Below, piece after piece: positions 44,888-60,600 of a DNA stretch of 64,000 nt. Positions within the stretch are counted from its first letter, which is position 1; the number at the start of each line of letters is the position of its first letter. This DNA comes from Dermatophagoides farinae (taxonomy: Eukaryota; Arthropoda; Arachnida; Sarcoptiformes; Pyroglyphidae): the NCBI RefSeq assembly GCF_024713945.1, contig NC_134681.1, positions 3,449,501 through 3,513,500 of the forward strand, read 5' to 3'. Below the pieces are notes generated by a model. It searched no databases, was not told the origin of the DNA, and saw nothing but the letters and a program-made list of their open reading frames with translations. Position numbers and translations under genes: made by a program.

Positions 44888-45593
44888 TCAATGACATTCA
44901 GTATAGGATACAATTGTTGAACCCATTTGTTTGATAACTTTTTGACAACGTTGTCCATTAATGCCACCACTACTACCACCACCACCACCACCAGATGATC
45001 CATGATAATAATGATGTTGTTGATGATGTTGATTTGATGAATGTTGAAAAAAATTTCCAAAAAATGTATCACCACTTGCCCAATGTGAATCATCATGATG
45101 ATCATGATGACCACCAAACATGCTACCGAAACCACCACCATCACCATCGTTATCATCGAAAAAATCATTAAAACTAAATGAAAAATGTTGCTGCTGCTGA
45201 TGATGATGATGATTGACCATTGCCATGATGATGATTAAACATTTGAAAAATATCATCAAAATTGGCAAAAATATCCTGAAAATTTGTATTGGTAAATTTA
45301 TTGGCCATATTATCGGTTTCACCAAATTGATCATATTGTTTACGTTTCTCTTTATCGGACAATACATCATATGCTGTTGCTATTTCACGAAATTTTTCTT
45401 CAGCACCAGGATCTTTATTTTTATCCGGATGATATTTTATAGCTAGATTACGAAATGCTTTTTTTATTTCACGTTCACTTGCATCACGTTTAATACCCAA
45501 TATTTCATAATAATCTCGTTTATTATTAGCCATTGTTAATGTGAATAAATTCAATGATGATGATAATAATAATATCACATAATATAGATGCAT
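44888..45593 (-). CDS. ER DnaJ/Hsp40 protein (DNAJB9/ERdj4-like) with a frame break
   Basis: Co-chaperone that stimulates BiP in the ER lumen. The N terminus is a signal peptide ([20 protein letters not shown]) followed by a complete J domain: [22 protein letters not shown], the HPD motif (residues 55-57) and the helix IV region [18 protein letters not shown] Phe-rich, Asp-rich linker leads to a C-terminal [20 protein letters not shown], which matches the DNAJB9 end. No single reading frame covers this: frame 1 runs from 45593 to a stop at 45174, while the C-terminal half (FSFSFNDFF onward) is in another frame ending at 44888. One extra base (or two missing) in the CAT/CAG-rich stretch at about 45174-45232 explains it. 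This is either a sequence error or a real lesion; no plausible intron fits. A 55-nt intron (45618-45672) probably lies in the 5' UTR. Confidence 0.85.
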
Positions 45594-45617
45594 GATTGGA
45601 TTTTGATTTTGATTGAA

Positions 45618-46058: not shown

Positions 46059-48008
46059 TCAATATTTATAGCTACGATATAGGAAAAATGTCGACAATGT
46101 CAGACAAAATAAGATGAACATAAATTTACCAGTAAGTAACAGAAATGATCCAACAACAAGAAGACCATGTAATGCTCCAGATGTTTGTATATTCTTTTAA
46201 GGAAAAAAACAGAAAAAAAATCAACAAGCGAATTTCTCATCAAATAATTTTCACTTACTAATGAAATTTTAAAAAATGGTAGCAAACCATTTTGTATCTG
46301 GCCTAATTGTCCAATAGTTGGAAAATCTTTCATTATGATGTTTAATTGAAATTTTAATTCAGCATCAAATAATATTCCCATGTTTGGTTCCAAATTCATA
46401 TGTGATAAATGTGTTTCTGAATTTGGATTCAAACCATAAACACCTGATTGTAACCGAGGGTGGCCAAAAAAATGTGGAAAAGACAACGCAAATGGTAGGC
46501 CACCAAAACAGCCAGCAACATTTGTATAACCATCACAATCGATTAAACGTTCAGTATCATGACAATAGCATTGATTTTCACGTTTACGTATATCAAATAA
46601 ATGTCTGGATATTTCATATAAATGGCTACGGATTCCATGTTTCCAATCGGTTCTAATCGGCGATGATGATGACGAGAATGTTAGAAAATGAAGATGCAAA
46701 AAAACAAACAACAACAAACAAATCTTTACCCATTATTAATAAATCGTAATGGACGACAAAAATGTTGTACCCAGATATCGATCGTATCGCTTTGTTCACC
46801 ATAACCAAAATATAATGGATCATATATTGAACGAAAACGATTACACGGTGATTGAAATTCATCAAATGTACTTCAATGAATTAAAATTGAATAATTAGAG
46901 AAATTACAAAATACAAACACAAAAACATACGTTTTTTCCAATATTTTAACAAATTGATTTACACGCACTTGACCATCGGCAAATCTAGTGACTTCAAATG
47001 GACCAAATTCATTGCCAGTCAATATGCCCATAATACTGATGCTGTTATTATTTAATTTATAATTTCCAAAATTTGTCATCAAATTCCGGATATCATAATT
47101 AATGCCAACCATTTGTAATGGTTTACTAGCCAATTCAATGAAACGTAATATATCAATCTGGCGACCGATCAATATTTCTTTGGCTGAACGATCTTCAATA
47201 ATACGTTCATTGAATGTTTGTAATGTCAGTACCAATATATTGTGAATGATTGGATTCAAAAATTTTATCATAAATTTTTTCATCCAATATACAACCCATG
47301 AAATTATTGAAAATATTGTCATGTTCATCACTTTCATACGGGTTTCAATCGATTCGTGTGATAAATCCTGACGAAAATCTGTTGTAAAACGTTCTTTAAA
47401 TACAACTGTTGTCGGTTTCCAAGCAACGATACGACGTTTACGTTTCATTCTTTCAAATTAAAGAAAAAACACATGATTACTTGAATCAATTTATTCAAAA
47501 AAAAAAAAAAAAAAATATATTTACTCAAAAATAAATGGTCCATGTTCCAGAAGATTTGGTTTCTGTCCACCAAGAAATTGTTTTCCATTACGTATTTCAT
47601 ATAGATAGATATCACAATAAACATCGGCTGGTAAATCTTGCCATAGCTTTAAAAACATACCACCTGGATTTAATTGCAATTGCCAATTTAAAACTATGGA
47701 AAAAGAAATTCAATCAATTTATATTCACCAGAAAAAAAAACAAACACAATCAAAATCATCATACCAAAATTGATTATTGGATCATAAATAATCAATGCAG
47801 ATATGGCCACAAATAGATTGATGAATGCCAAACGTTTAAAAGTAAGTTTTGGATCTTTACCCTTTAATTGTTCTTTCCATTCACTGATTTTTTGATCAAT
47901 TTTTCTTTTTTCCACATTTGTTATCATCGTCATCATTGCCATTGTTATCGTAAACAAAGCTTTCATTATTAGTTTGATTATGTTTGATATGGCGTTTTTA
48001 AAATTCAT
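46059..48008 (-). CDS. CD36/SCARB-family scavenger receptor
   Basis: Two-span membrane glycoprotein for lipids, lipoproteins or carotenoids. Exons: 47765-48008, 47525-47693, 46931-47449, 46730-46870, 46259-46652, 46059-46193; total 1,602 nt (533 aa), phases consistent. Visible: an N-terminal membrane segment LAFINLFVAISALIIYDP, the ectodomain start VLNWQLQLNPGGMFLKLWQDLP, the family block GPFIFEMKRKRRIVAW (CD36: GPYxYRExR), the Cys-rich stretch with CNRF, FCRPL, CYCH, DCDG and GCFG, the LSFPHFF block (the PHF motif of the family), LSHMNLEPNMGILFDAELKFQ, and a C-terminal membrane segment ALHGLLVVGSFLLLTG, FMFILFCL. The basic tail is very short. Most joins are supported by phase 2 or phase 1 codons that restore family residues. 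Which clade (SCARB1, LIMP-2 or insect SNMP-like) cannot be decided by eye. A second hydrophobic run precedes the usual N-terminal membrane segment. Confidence 0.93.
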
Positions 48009-49803: not shown

Positions 49804-50099
49804 AACATTGAGAAAAATTGAATAATTTGATCAATTGGAATTTAATTGATCAAACAGAGAAAACGGATCTAAATTATTGATAACATTTGAGATACTCACT
49901 TGAACAACAAGATGATATACATTTTTATAAAGCAAATAAAAAAATCAAATGGTTATTTCGTAATCGATTAATCAATTAATTGATCATTTTTTTTTATTTT
50001 ATTACAAAATGAATACTTGAAATCAATCAATAAAACAATGAGAGAGAGAGACAAAATCTATATCCGGGATCCAATGGATCTCGTGTTTTTTTTCTTTTT

Positions 50100-50105
50100 T
50101 TTATT
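50100..50105 (-). terminator. Poly(A) signal after the EFLGGPamide exon
   Basis: AATAAA on the minus strand about 104 nt after the stop at 50209, consistent with 50209-50540 being a true terminal exon. Confidence 0.6.
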
Positions 50106-50208: not shown

Positions 50209-50540
50209 TTAACGACGTCCAGGTCCACCAAGAAATTCACTACCTTTTGTGTAATATTGAAATTTCATTGGAAATCGTTGTTGATTTAATAATGGTGACG
50301 ATTTAATCTTTTTATTCAAATGGCTATTATTAAAGTTTTTCGCTATTCCATATCTCATAATGCCAACGATACCATCATTGGACATGATTGGTTCGGTTTC
50401 TTTACGCTGATGAGGAATTGATTTTGGTACACGGAATTGTCCACCACCACCATTACAATCATTATTATCATCATCATGTGTATTGCCAGCTACCTGCATC
50501 ATGACATTTCCATTTAAACGTTGTTTTGGCACCATTTTGT
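50209..50540 (-). CDS. EFLamide gene, alternative terminal exon encoding GSEFLGGPamide
   Basis: This exon ends QYYTKGSEFLGGPGRR and stop. Cleavage after Lys and at RR with Gly as amide donor would release GSEFLGGP-NH2, the EFLGGPamide type known from mites and crustaceans, in the thyrotropin-releasing-hormone-related EFLamide family. It starts after an ACAACAG acceptor in phase 1 (with a pyrimidine-rich tract somewhat upstream). Exons 1 and 2 of the EFLamide gene both end in phase 1, so either can be joined; via exon 2 the product is 278 aa with the same signal peptide. No signal peptide is encoded locally, so an independent gene starting at MVPKQR is less likely. The spacer carries other basic sites (HQRKE, NKKIK) but no other EFL copy. 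Confidence is high that it encodes an EFLGGPamide, lower for the splice. Confidence 0.75.
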
Positions 50541-50919
50541 CTGTTGTTGTCGTTATTATTTTTGGGTTGTGAAAAAGAACAAGAAGAAAAACGATGAAAT
50601 TAAATTTGAAATACACACAGACACACACAAAAACAACAGAAATGAAATGAGAAAAAATTTAGATTAAATTTACCCGGAAATATTGACTTGCATTCAGTAA
50701 ATCTTGTTTAGTTTATTCTTGTGGATAACAGACAAAATATATTTGATTTAAAAGTTTGAAAAGACAAAAATCTTTTATTTTTTATTCGATTTCATTACAG
50801 TTTTGTTTGTTTTTTTTTAGTTTAGTTCAAATTCAATCAATTATCATTAATATATATTCCGAGATTATGACATTTTTAATGGCGAATAAGAGATGATTGG
50901 AAACAAAACGAAAAAAATT

Positions 50920-50946
50920 TTTATTGCTGATTTGTCGTCGTTTATT
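50920..50946 (-). terminator. Candidate poly(A) signals for the short EFLamide isoform
   Basis: Two AATAAA hexamers on the minus strand (50920-50925 and 50941-50946), about 370-390 nt after the stop at 51313 and before the downstream alternative exon. They would allow the MGSEFLamide transcript to end here. Confidence 0.4.
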
Positions 50947-51029
50947 ATTGGCGCTATTGCTAGTTCATCATTTTTTTTATATTTTATGAATAAAATTTGT
51001 ATTTTCAAAACTAATCAATACAACGATGA

Positions 51030-51063
<34 letters not shown>

Positions 51064-51312
51064 GATTGAAACAAATTCAATTTTTCTCACCAAGAAATGA
51101 TTGACAAACTTTCAGGTGTAGTAGTAGTAGTAGTTTAGTGATTAATTTGGTTTTTTTTGGCAAATTTAAATTAGAATACATTGTGTGTGTGTATGCGTGC
51201 GTCTGGTGTGTGATTTCGGGTAAATTGGGGGACAAAGAAAACAGAAAATTTTTTCTGTTTTTTCAATTTTAATTTCATTTTTTTTTTGCTGATTGATAAT
51301 TTCGATACATCA

Positions 51313-52286
51313 TCATCGTCCAAGAAATTCGGATCCCATTTTTTTCTGTGCCATAAAATATGGTGATGCTAGTATCGATAATTGTGGTGCTGATAATAAT
51401 TGTTGTTGTTGTTGTTGTCGTTGCTGTTGCGATGGTTGCTGCTGTCCAGATAATAGATGATTATTATCCAAATAATAGCTACTGCTAAACGATGGTCGTC
51501 GTATTGCAGCAATTATTGAACGTTTTTTACCCAAAAATTCTGAACCCATTCTTTTTCCTGAATTTTTAGTAAATTTAGTATTTTAGCAATTTTGTTTAGA
51601 TTTATTTTCAGTGTGTTTTTTTTGTGTTTAGAAAAAAAATTCAACTCTTTCAATTCTGTGTGTGAGAATTTTTTTTTTCTATGAAAATATTCAATAAGAG
51701 AAATACATACCAAGATAATCGCTACTTTGTAATCGTGATGCAAGATAATTATGCAATACATATGGTGACATTAACCGTATGGTATCGATGGATGAACGAT
51801 AATTACGAATAGTTTCATCTGTACCACCACCACCACCACCACCAATGCTACCAGAATTTGTTAATGCTGAAGCACCAGATGAAGCAGCAGCAGCAGCAGC
51901 AGGTCGTATACTGTAAAGTAATTCTTCTTGACTTAGATTATTATTATTATCGCCCGATAATGATGATGATGATTGTGATTGATCTTTTTTTTTGCAAGAA
52001 AAAATCAATCAAATTTTTATCGATTTTTTTTATTGATTAAATGCAAAAACTTACCGGCAACATCAGCTTGATTGTTATTGTTGTTAATGTTATTAGACGA
52101 GACTGTAACACCTGCTGCTGTATTGGTGTTCCAAGCACGTGCATCAGTTACATCGAATAAATTACCGGCTATGAGCCAAATAAATACAATTATATGAATA
52201 AAACGATATCGATTGGCTGTCAAAATCATCGATGATGATTTTGGTGATGATGATGATAATGATGAAACGATTGATGAGATTTCCAT
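51313..52286 (-). CDS. EFLamide neuropeptide precursor (TRH-type), MGSEFLamide isoform
   Basis: Secreted neuropeptide precursor of the EFLamide family, the arthropod counterpart of TRH. Exons: 52055-52286, 51711-51983, 51313-51557; total 750 nt (249 aa), phases consistent (1 and 1). A signal peptide is visible as MILTANRYRFIHIIVFIWLI, with cleavage likely near VTDARA. Two mature peptides are clear: KR-MGSEFLG-KKR and KK-MGSEFLG-R-stop, both giving MGSEFL-NH2. Just before the first is SRLQSSDYLG-KR, a conservative variant (D for E, Y for F) that could yield a related amide. The spacer is Ser/Ala/Gly- and Gln-rich. The annotated ATG (52286) lies about 20 nt from a TATA box, so the second in-frame ATG (52229, MILTANRY) may be the true start and gives the better signal peptide. 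Confidence 0.9.
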
Positions 52287-56494: not shown

Positions 56495-57655
56495 TCATCG
56501 GATTGTTGATCGTCTTGTTGTTGTTGTTGTTGTTGTTGTTTTTTTTGATTGTTGATTCTGTGCAGATTGTGATGACCATTGTTTAGCAATAATAACCTGC
56601 GCACATGGTGTACAATAAATATTTTCTTGTCCATTACCATCAGCATTATCATTATTATTATTATCATCATCATCAATCAATGGTACAAAACCTTTACCAC
56701 CCAATTCAGTAGAACAATCTTTACATTTGAAACAGGCTTGATGCCATTTATGATTACCATGTGTGATCATTTTTCTTCCAGTTGATCCTGATATAAAAAC
56801 AAAAAAAAAGAAGAAAAAAACATTATCATGATGATGATGATGATTATGATTGTAGAGAGAAAAAAAATGAACAAACCTATAATTGGCAGTTTACAAATGT
56901 CACATTTAGGAGCAAATAAATTAGCATTACATTCACGACAATATGGCCGATTATCATGTGATGTGAATGGAATGTTTGACAATTGTTTTTGACATTCAAC
57001 ACAACGGAAACAGGATGCATGCCATGGTTCATCACGATATACAATACCATCATTGATAATAATCTGAAGAATGGAAAAAAAATGATAAAAAAAAAATTCA
57101 AATAAAGAATGATATGGGAAAAAATGGAATCATCGTAACAACATACCTCACAGCATTTAATACATCTGGTTGCAAACACGTTCTTGTAACATTCTGAACA
57201 ATAGATATCATCATTTTTCTGTAAAAATGTTTTCGTACCTATTGGTGTTTGACATTTTTTACAACAAAAACAACTATCATGATATAATTTGTCACGAAAA
57301 TCTAGTTTTCTTTGTCCTTTGAATAATGAGGAGGAAACAAAAAAAATTTTCCCATGAATAATGAAAAACAAAACAAAAAAAAATGAGCAAGAATTAAATA
57401 AATTTTGATTGATCATGACATTGATCATGTTGATATCAAAAACGTTCTTACCTGGTTCAAATATCTGTTCACATTTACAGCAACGCGGTGCAAAAGTATT
57501 ATCATAACAATTTGCACAGAATATCCGATCAGAACGTGAACCAAATGGTTTATCAAATAAATCAAATTTACATTCACTACAAACAAAACATTTTTCATGC
57601 CAATGACGATCATTGAATGAAAGATCCTGGAATTTTCAATTTTTTTATAGATTAG

Positions 57656-57687
<32 letters not shown>

Positions 57688-60600
57688 GATCAGCACTTAC
57701 TTTTGTATTCACACCAATTGGTTTTTGACATTCTTCACAGACATTACTATGTCTTTGTTCATAACAATCGATACACATTGGTTTACCACCAACATTATCA
57801 TTATCATTACCATGATCAACATCATCACTTAATGCATAACGTGCCGTTGTTAATGATTGTTTACAATAAACACAATTAAAATGTTCCATATGCCATTTTT
57901 GTGTTGTTGATGGATCTTTTATATATTCATTTGCCATTATAAGCTTAAAATATTAAAATAATATATAATTAGCACGAAACGAAACAGAAAAAAAATCAAT
58001 CAATTAGCAAATTTTTAAACAGCAGAAAAAAACATACGAGCAAAACCAATAATTTTTCAATTGATACACACAAAAAAAAACAAAAACAAACTCATCATCA
58101 TCATCATCATCAACAATACATACCACTCGATCGTATTTAGACAACAACCTAATCATGTGTGTATGTGTGTTTGATAAGTAAACAAAACAACAATATACAA
58201 TATATCAAGGTGTAATACATACATACACACATGATGATCATATTTCAAGGTAAAATATATCTATAACCATATCTATATGCACATTCTATTAATGGCGTCA
58301 TCATCATCCATTTTCATTATTATGGACGGCTTTTTTTCTTGATTATCATTCATTCATAGAATGTCTATGTGTTTATCTTGTTGAAATAATCTGAATGGCT
58401 AGCAGACTAGCTGACTGAATGACTAACACTCGTTTAAGATGATGGCCAATAGACATGAAGAAACAAACACCACTATGTATACATGCATGTTTTGTGTTGC
58501 TATGGTATATGGCTATACATCTAAACCACCACAGTAATCTCACATATGAATTGAACAAAATTTTTCATTTCAATCAATCGATTAATCGATTAATTGATTA
58601 TAAATAAATTGAATAAATAAACATATTGTTTATACCGTTGAATTATGATCATTGATGCAAATATTGCCATTTAATGATGATGATGATGATTGTTTTTGTT
58701 GTTGTTTCAATGATAATAATGAAAATGGATGATGATCAAACATTGTTTTAACCATTGTTGTTTTATATGAATTTTTTGGTAATAATTTTGTCATCTTTAT
58801 CATTGATGATTTTTTATCATCATCAACAACAACAACAGCAGCAGGATCATTATTTTTATGATGATTTGATTTAATTGAATTTTTTTTCATAATTTTCTTG
58901 AAAAATGATTGTTTTGGCACAGTATTGTTGTTGGTGGTGGCGGTTTCAATTGTTGTTGTACCGTTGATTTTTGAAAATTTATTCAAAATTTCATCACCAC
59001 CACCATTACCACCATCGCCATTAGCCATATCATGTTTAGATTTTGTCGATTTAGATTTGGTTTTCTTCATTTTCCATATGGAAAATTTATTTTTCATTTT
59101 ATCAAATTTATTATTTTCAGACATTTTATTCCACAATGGTGCAAAAAAAAATAAATCAAAATTCGCTGTGTATGCGATGAATACACAAAGTGAATGAAAA
59201 AAAAAATGAAAACCAAAAAGACAAAAGAAATTCTTCGTCTTTTAATTTTTTCCACAACAAACAAGAAATAAAAACAAAACCTTGCAAATGACAATAAAAT
59301 CAATTATGTTGATTAAAATAAAAAACAAACTAAACAAAAACACAAAATGAAATTATGTTGACTGACTGAATGAATGACTTACATCAATAATAAATCTTCA
59401 ATGTCAACATTTTTTTTTTTTTAGTCTTAAAAAAATTCTTCAAATTCATTCTTTCAATGTTTTTATATATATAGAATCTGTTTTTTTTTGTTTCATGTGT
59501 CATTGATGCTAAAGAATATTCTGATGGTTATAATTATAATCATTTTGGTTGCCAAAAAAAGAATAAAATCCGCTTTTTTCGGTTTTCTACTTGTGTTCTC
59601 TTTCCGAATGGAAAAAAATAGATAGACCAACAAGTGTTTTTTTCTGTTTTGTTCAGTTTTCGACACATCGACATATTCAATTGTTACAAGAAAAAAAAAA
59701 TGAATTCAAGAATTTGATTAAATGAACACAATGTTTTATTTTCATTTTCATTCTTTTTTTTTTTTTTTTTTTTTTTTTTTGATTGTTTCGATATTTTGTT
59801 TGACATTTATTTATTCACATACAGAAATCAATTACGTCAATGACGATGATGATGATGATGACACTGTGAAATTTTTTCTATTTATTTACTGTTGTTGTTG
59901 TTGTTGTTGTTGATATTTACGATAACGGTGACAGACAAAATCATTTTTCGTTCATTCTCATTCATTCATTCACTTACATTCTCTGAATGGGTGGATTTTC
60001 ATTATATATAGAAATGTGTGTTCAAATGAAATGGAAAAATTTACAAATGTTGCAAACGAACAAAATTTTTTTTTATTTTCTTGACGAGAAATATTCTAAA
60101 TTTTATCACTCGGATTTTATTATTATTATCAAGACCGACGACCGAATCATTATTATTACCGATGAAATCGTAGTATAATAATAATTATATAATGAAAAAG
60201 TTTCTACTGCATACCTATTATTCATTTACATTTATTCATCAAAATGAATGCAATGTAGAGAATCAATGAAAATTTTCATCACATCATAGTACCGGATATG
60301 CCATTTGTGACTGATGATGATGATGATGATTCGTTTGATTAATGATTTAGTTCTACTAAAGAATCTCAAAATAGAAAGCAAAGAGAGAGAGAGAGAAAAG
60401 ATTCATTAAGGCAATTATGAATTTTATCTTTCATCATTTTTATTACACACACACACACACAAAAAGACATAAACAAAAGAAAAAAAACTGTCAAACAATG
60501 GATGTCGGAATATTTGTTTTGTTTCCATCATCATCATCATCATCAAAAATAGTCATTTCAATTTTGAAAACAAACAAATGCAGCAACACAGCAACAACAA

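Follow-up and report, generated by a model that had tools for sequence, protein, structure and literature searches.

In the 64,000-nucleotide stretch of DNA analysed here (the window, C5:3449501-3513500), three exons on the minus strand constitute the EFLamide (arthropod TRH-orthologue) precursor gene of an astigmatan mite, and a coding stretch downstream of them, exon B, is likely to be a second terminal exon of the same gene, used as an alternative to exon 3; from its sequence features we put the probability of this reading at about 0.6. In arthropods the TRH system is represented by EFLamide, for which few functions are known. An initial annotation of this DNA had proposed an EFLamide gene with two peptide-bearing terminal exons, and its exon coordinates, phases and products were recovered in our analysis (Table 1).

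Table 1. Features of the EFLamide locus and its neighbourhood, in window coordinates (^ marks an exon-intron boundary)
Feature	Positions	Strand	Description	Basis
Exon 1	52055..52286	-	Signal peptide (MEISS...), phase-1 end, donor G^gtaagt	Self-trained gene model
Exon 2	51711..51983	-	Spacer, ends ...ASRLQSSDYL-G, phase 1 at both ends	Gene model
Exon 3 (terminal exon A)	51313..51557	-	SSDYL-G-KR completed, then MGSEFL-G-KKR ... KK-MGSEFL-G-R-stop	Gene model, motif matches
Weak phase-1 donor gtaaaa in exon 3	51525..51530	-	TTTTGG^gtaaaa, score 4.2, exon end would be 51531	
Poly(A) hexamers AATAAA/ATTAAA (seven)	50712..51273	-	Starts 51273, 50946, 50925, 50880, 50786, 50779, 50717; between exon 3 and 50540	
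Candidate first exon of a separate gene	51091..51181	-	ATG, MYSNLNLPKKTKLITKLLLLLHLKVCQSFL, phase-1 donor CTTG^gtgaga	Near-zero coding signal, (CTA)5 present
AG-free tract	50543..50686	-	144 nt, 64% pyrimidine, upstream of 50540 acceptor	
Exon B (candidate terminal exon)	50209..50540	-	Acceptor caacag^AC, phase 1, ends K-GSEFLGGP-G-RR-stop	Open frame, coding signal, AG-free tract, motif
AATAAA hexamers downstream of exon B	49993..50105	-	Starts 50105, 50003, 49998	
Neighbour gene, CD36 family	46100-46732	-		Pfam
Neighbour gene, DnaJ domain	45174-45617	-		Pfam
Neighbour gene, LIM-domain protein	56877-57952	-		Pfam

Exons 1-3 were delineated with a model of splice sites and coding sequence, for which the window and 200 kb of flanking DNA (264 kb, 51 introns) served as the training set; the training introns probably include those of the EFLamide gene itself, which makes its scores slightly circular. 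The model returned 52286-52055, 51983-51711 and 51557-51313 as one gene with a score of 110.7, and their joint translation is a 249-residue precursor with a hydrophobic signal segment, a spacer, SSDYL-G-KR, MGSEFL-G-KKR, a further spacer and KK-MGSEFL-G-R-stop. The donor of exon 1 scores 12.2, matched by 0.03% of the 3328 GTs of the window and equal to or above all training donors, a set that probably contains this donor. Exon 2 has an acceptor of 4.7 and a donor (CTTG^gtatgt at 51711) of 7.5, and the exon 3 acceptor scores 5.7. The signal peptide was judged on hydrophobicity alone, the best 10-mer of exon 1 reaching 2.93; an alternative start is the ATG at 52229, reading MILTANRYRFIHIIVFIWLIAGNLFDVTDARA. 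A second strong phase-1 donor (9.2) at 52166 on the minus strand, within exon 1 and directly after the signal-peptide core, could also feed downstream exons. The median training intron is 72 nt, and a median of 71 nt is given in parts of PMC7591027 for both Sarcoptes scabiei and Dermatophagoides pteronyssinus.

Exon 3 carries two MGSEFLG copies, one continuing into KKR and one into R-stop, each GSEFL-Gly thus being followed by basic residues; dibasic sites precede the copies, and two tandem stops end the exon. The SSDYL-G-KR segment spans the exon 2/3 junction (51711-51726 and 51550-51557, minus strand), which itself makes the amidation Gly, so that this Gly depends on the splicing of exon 2 to exon 3. 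Position by position against GSEFL-G-K (S/G, S, D/E, Y/F, L), SSDYL-G-K looks like a diverged third EFLamide copy. A Pfam search with the precursor gave a single match, below its cut-off. An EFLG-K-R/S pattern, which misses this gene's own copies, had four matches in the genome (one for the backward control), none precursor-like on reading; the gene is the sole such locus found by pattern searches with a limited set of spellings. Just past an ATTAAA hexamer downstream of exon 3 we noted by eye an inverted repeat, acagaaaa-aa-ttttctgt, with 8-nt arms (51241-51258, minus strand).

Several features indicate that exon B is coding. One of its sense frames stays open over 109 codons and has a coding score of 39.5 bits; the two remaining sense frames score -8.1 and 1.0, and the antisense frames, each of which is interrupted by stops, reach no more than 18.2. 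In a Markov simulation of 327-mers, 16 of 20,000 were open and 0 of 20,000 were both open and equally coding-like; 15 of the 79 open 109-codon stretches within the window score as high, real genes counted in. The 118 nt upstream of the 50540 acceptor are open in the same frame and score -15.6, which places the beginning of the coding region about at the acceptor. A CAG acceptor in the matching phase is present, as are the separate stop and the GSEFLGGPG-RR end described in the initial annotation; the GSEFL core is retained in exon B, and an EFL-amide end is absent. A degenerate GSEFLG pattern had three matches in the window and none in 100 shuffles. Across the genome (62.4 Mb, 22 contigs) it had five, versus two for the backward control pattern; the two outside the window read GSEFFG, and the three true GSEFLG matches all lie within this 1.3 kb, hence exon B is no chance ORF. 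With those two unrelated matches as the background rate, chance would place about 4e-5 GSEFLG sites in the 1104 nt that follow exon 3, and a chance origin of the exon B motif is ruled out by the shuffles and the genome-wide counts. The EFLGGPG pattern occurs once in the whole genome.

Searches for relatives of exon B returned only its self-match in the genome (protein search, up to E 10), no Pfam match and no confirmed relative in the viral_contigs and genome_contigs collections of viral and prokaryote sequence. Outside the last motif, exon 3 and exon B show no similarity (673 of 1000 shuffles were as good locally and 155 of 1000 when end-anchored), and a duplication of exon 3 into exon B extending beyond that motif is unsupported by this test. 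The first 50 residues of exon B have no hydrophobic signal segment (best 10-mer 0.69), so a secreted product requires an upstream secretory exon; exon 1 offers a secretory segment and an excellent phase-1 donor, as the product of exon B would need. The gene model gave exon B a start at the ATG at 50535 and linked it to exons further downstream, joining it to neither exon 1 nor exon 2; alternative transcripts lie beyond what such a model can represent.

The splice sites around exon B allow it to be joined to the EFLamide gene. Each of the two terminal exons begins in phase 1 and is phase-compatible with exons 1 and 2, as had been claimed, and when 50540 is joined to either of these exons the reading frame continues uninterrupted to GSEFLGGPGRR*. 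The phases and layout are compatible with the proposed switch between EFLamide and EFLGGPamide, which is partly supported; yet the phase match, having a prior of 1/3, counts only for a factor of about three in favour of joining exon B, and the 50540 acceptor has a PWM score of 0.77, at the 4th percentile of training acceptors and equalled by 55% of window AGs. Its AG-free tract is longer than most (training acceptors have a median of 55 and a 90th percentile of 84): a tract of such length precedes 2.85% of window AGs, and 0.37% have one that also equals it in pyrimidine content. Counted by eye, the sequence taataac occurs 12-18 nt upstream of exon B. Weak acceptors behind long AG-free tracts are common in regulated exons; the 50540 acceptor fits such an exon, but also resembles a plain poor site. 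Predicted RNA structure around it is weaker than the shuffle mean (z 1.67). We rejected a splice to a stronger phase-1 acceptor at 50243 (4.2), giving SSDYLGSEFLGGPG-RR, which leaves the coding signal of 50538-50244 unexplained.

Two further elements of the earlier proposal need qualification. The statement that exon 3 has no usable donor was too strong, given the weak phase-1 site at its 51531 end; the junction 51531^50540 is in frame, and it converts the amidation Gly after MGSEFL into Asp (MGSEFL-D), so that MGSEFLamide and GSEFLGGPamide in one productive precursor are not obtained from these sites, and the practical conclusion stands. Poly(A) hexamers indeed follow both terminal exons, including upstream of the second acceptor; the 772 nt that separate exon 3 from 50540 contain seven, versus 2.4 expected at window density, and a T/G-rich stretch follows the one at 50786; they are weak evidence because the DNA is AT-rich.

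We infer the following mode of expression. Exons 1 and 2 would supply the signal peptide and spacer, and the transcript would most likely end in one of two 3'-terminal exons: 1) inclusion of exon 3, with cleavage at a poly(A) site before 50540, would yield two MGSEFLamide peptides and possibly SSDYLamide; 2) skipping of exon 3, with exon 1 (from 52055, perhaps 52166) or exon 2 (from 51711) joined to 50540 by a regulated choice, would yield a peptide ending in GSEFLGGPamide. As the exon 2 to 50540 junction changes the amidation Gly of SSDYL-G to Asp, the SSDYLamide copy would then be lost along with exon 3.

We favour alternative terminal exons over the arrangement that ranks next, in which two genes lie in tandem and exon B is part of a separate EFLGGPamide gene with its own first exon at 51181-51091 (signal peptide MYSNLNLPKKTKLITKLLLLLHLKVCQ...), spliced 51091^50540; this we regard as unlikely. 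A separate gene with its own signal peptide had been named beforehand as the finding that would overturn the switch, and a candidate for it does exist: an ATG, a stretch of hydrophobic residues and a good donor of phase 1 (7.0), in a place and phase that fit 50540, with the joined frame open to GSEFLGGPGRR*. Outside predicted coding sequence, 772 nt of a single strand are expected to hold about 0.036 such phase-1 candidates (0.089 in any phase), a rate derived from 19 distinct phase-1 donors (14 on the plus and 5 on the minus strand) in 264 kb; the thresholds were set about at the observed values, so that this expectation flatters the candidate. It is weakened by a coding signal of -0.05 per codon, versus 0.30 in exon 1, and by a hydrophobic run that is partly a (CTA)5 microsatellite and reaches 2.24, versus 2.73-3.16 in four mite N-termini picked by hand, that of exon 1 among them. 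Additionally, only 131 nt separate the exon 3 stop from its ATG, to hold both a 3' end and a promoter; among predicted genes scoring at least 30 in the 264 kb, 1 of 10 gaps between same-strand neighbours is as small, and 1 of 7 at a score of 50. Unspliced, this candidate runs to QSFLGEKN-stop (51077-51103, minus strand), faintly like a decayed EFLG copy, which may be coincidence.

It is improbable that both peptides lie on one mRNA, with exon B forming a further open frame within an extended 3' region (its intron retained, or removed from the 3' UTR by splicing) and being translated from the ATG at 50535 or left untranslated, somewhat like the annelid FVa/EFLGa transcript. This ATG directly follows the acceptor (caaaATGG) and is where the gene model placed its start, and in Platynereis the EFLGa coding region follows a stop codon without a start Met or signal peptide (parts of PMC3890597); against this stand the missing hydrophobic signal segment of exon B, the two tandem stops of exon 3 and the seven intervening poly(A) hexamers. 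About as improbable, and ranked last, is that exon B is a former exon that has dropped out of splicing, or that it is joined to exon 3 via 51531 at the cost of MGSEFLamide from that copy: the weak 50540 acceptor and the phase-1 donor at 51531 speak for it, and against it exon B retains an intact frame with coding signal, an amidation and basic site, and its stop.

The product of exon B had been named GSEFLGGPamide, and GSEFLGGPG-RR is indeed encoded; the name presumes cleavage at a single Lys, for only one Lys precedes GSEFLGGPG and its release would need monobasic processing. With this Lys uncut, the product would extend to a single Arg (the 18-mer FPMKFQYYTKGSEFLGGP) or to the nearest dibasic site, NKK (the 29-mer IKSSP...GGP). 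Computed [M+H]+ values of the amidated forms are 682.323 for MGSEFL, 762.378 for GSEFLGGP, 824.415 for LQSSDYL, 2096.031 for the 18-mer and 3360.756 for the 29-mer.

As to the receptor, a TRH-receptor query of the genome found an outstanding locus at C3:913801-914376 (E 3.4e-55, 52% identity), with a further exon of the same locus at C3:911054 (51%); the next locus had E 6.2e-25 and 36%, among 53 matches listed in all. The translated C3:913801-914376 exon matched a TRH receptor best in the PDB (197 bits, versus 92 for the next kind), and the second-best locus matched neuromedin-U receptors best. A 7tm_1 scan gave 137 matches. The genome thus has one outstanding TRH-receptor-like locus, which we count among the points in favour of a single gene with two endings, and the EFLamide receptor is described as the TRH-receptor orthologue in parts of PMC4888303. 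Among other receptor loci, L032 is neuromedin-U-receptor-like by PDB match, and two further candidates, L033 and L034, look alike by eye.

The mite precursor resembles arthropod EFLamide/GSEFLamide precursors in its signal peptide and its amidated GSEFL copies between basic sites, and lobster peptides in parts of PMC4696782 include AMGSEFLamide and AVGSEFLamide; it differs in having just two canonical copies plus SSDYL and a candidate second terminal exon ending in EFLGGPamide. The last exon of a mantis EFLamide gene is reported to start at a phase 2 intron site (parts of PMC11874938), whereas both mite terminal exons start in phase 1 by our own count. An Ixodes EFLamide entry appears in part of PMC7828734, and 23 neuropeptides are reported for Dermatophagoides pteronyssinus in a paper whose main text does not contain 'EFL' (PMC12105342). 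In the open-access literature EFLGGP was found in no neuropeptide paper, the texts with EFLGGP or SEFLGG being, by title, on antibodies or other non-neuropeptide subjects, and GGPamide was found there and LGGPamide was not; as this search covered open-access literature, we do not claim the EFLGGPamide peptide or exon B as unreported. A Der p 2/Der f 2-like locus (best E 1.6e-30) is also present in the genome; its sequence clearly departs from those of both allergens, and together with the median intron length this locus points to an astigmatan mite.

Several known systems have comparable architectures. In calcitonin/CGRP an alternative terminal exon is coupled to alternative polyadenylation; the likeness lies in this coupled choice, and the difference in that the system is vertebrate, experimentally proven and concerned with unrelated peptides. 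The beetle DH31 and DH37-47 genes likewise splice one signal-peptide exon to alternative peptide exons, the DH37 and DH47 exons being thought to stem from exon duplication (parts of PMC6585902); they belong to another peptide family, and their structure comes from transcripts, whereas that of the mite is predicted. Platynereis FVa/EFLGa shares EFLG-type peptides in a second coding region that lacks its own signal peptide and lies downstream of another peptide region, but stop-codon read-through on one mRNA is proposed there (parts of PMC3890597), whereas the acceptor and matching phases point to splicing in the mite.

More tentatively, and with less confidence than in the terminal exons themselves, we suggest that a single TRH-orthologue gene may, through the terminal exon it uses, switch its output between ligands with an EFL-amide end and one ending in Pro-amide (EFLGGP-amide). 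Either all of these would act on one TRH-receptor orthologue, or the Pro-amide form would act on another receptor, and one splice variant would also turn off SSDYL-amide. Vertebrate TRH also ends in Pro-amide. If this is true, two C-terminally different ligands facing one receptor orthologue would permit a direct test of the effect of the GGP extension on receptor activity, and this compact gene would show an ancient hormone gene diversifying via exon choice instead of gene duplication.
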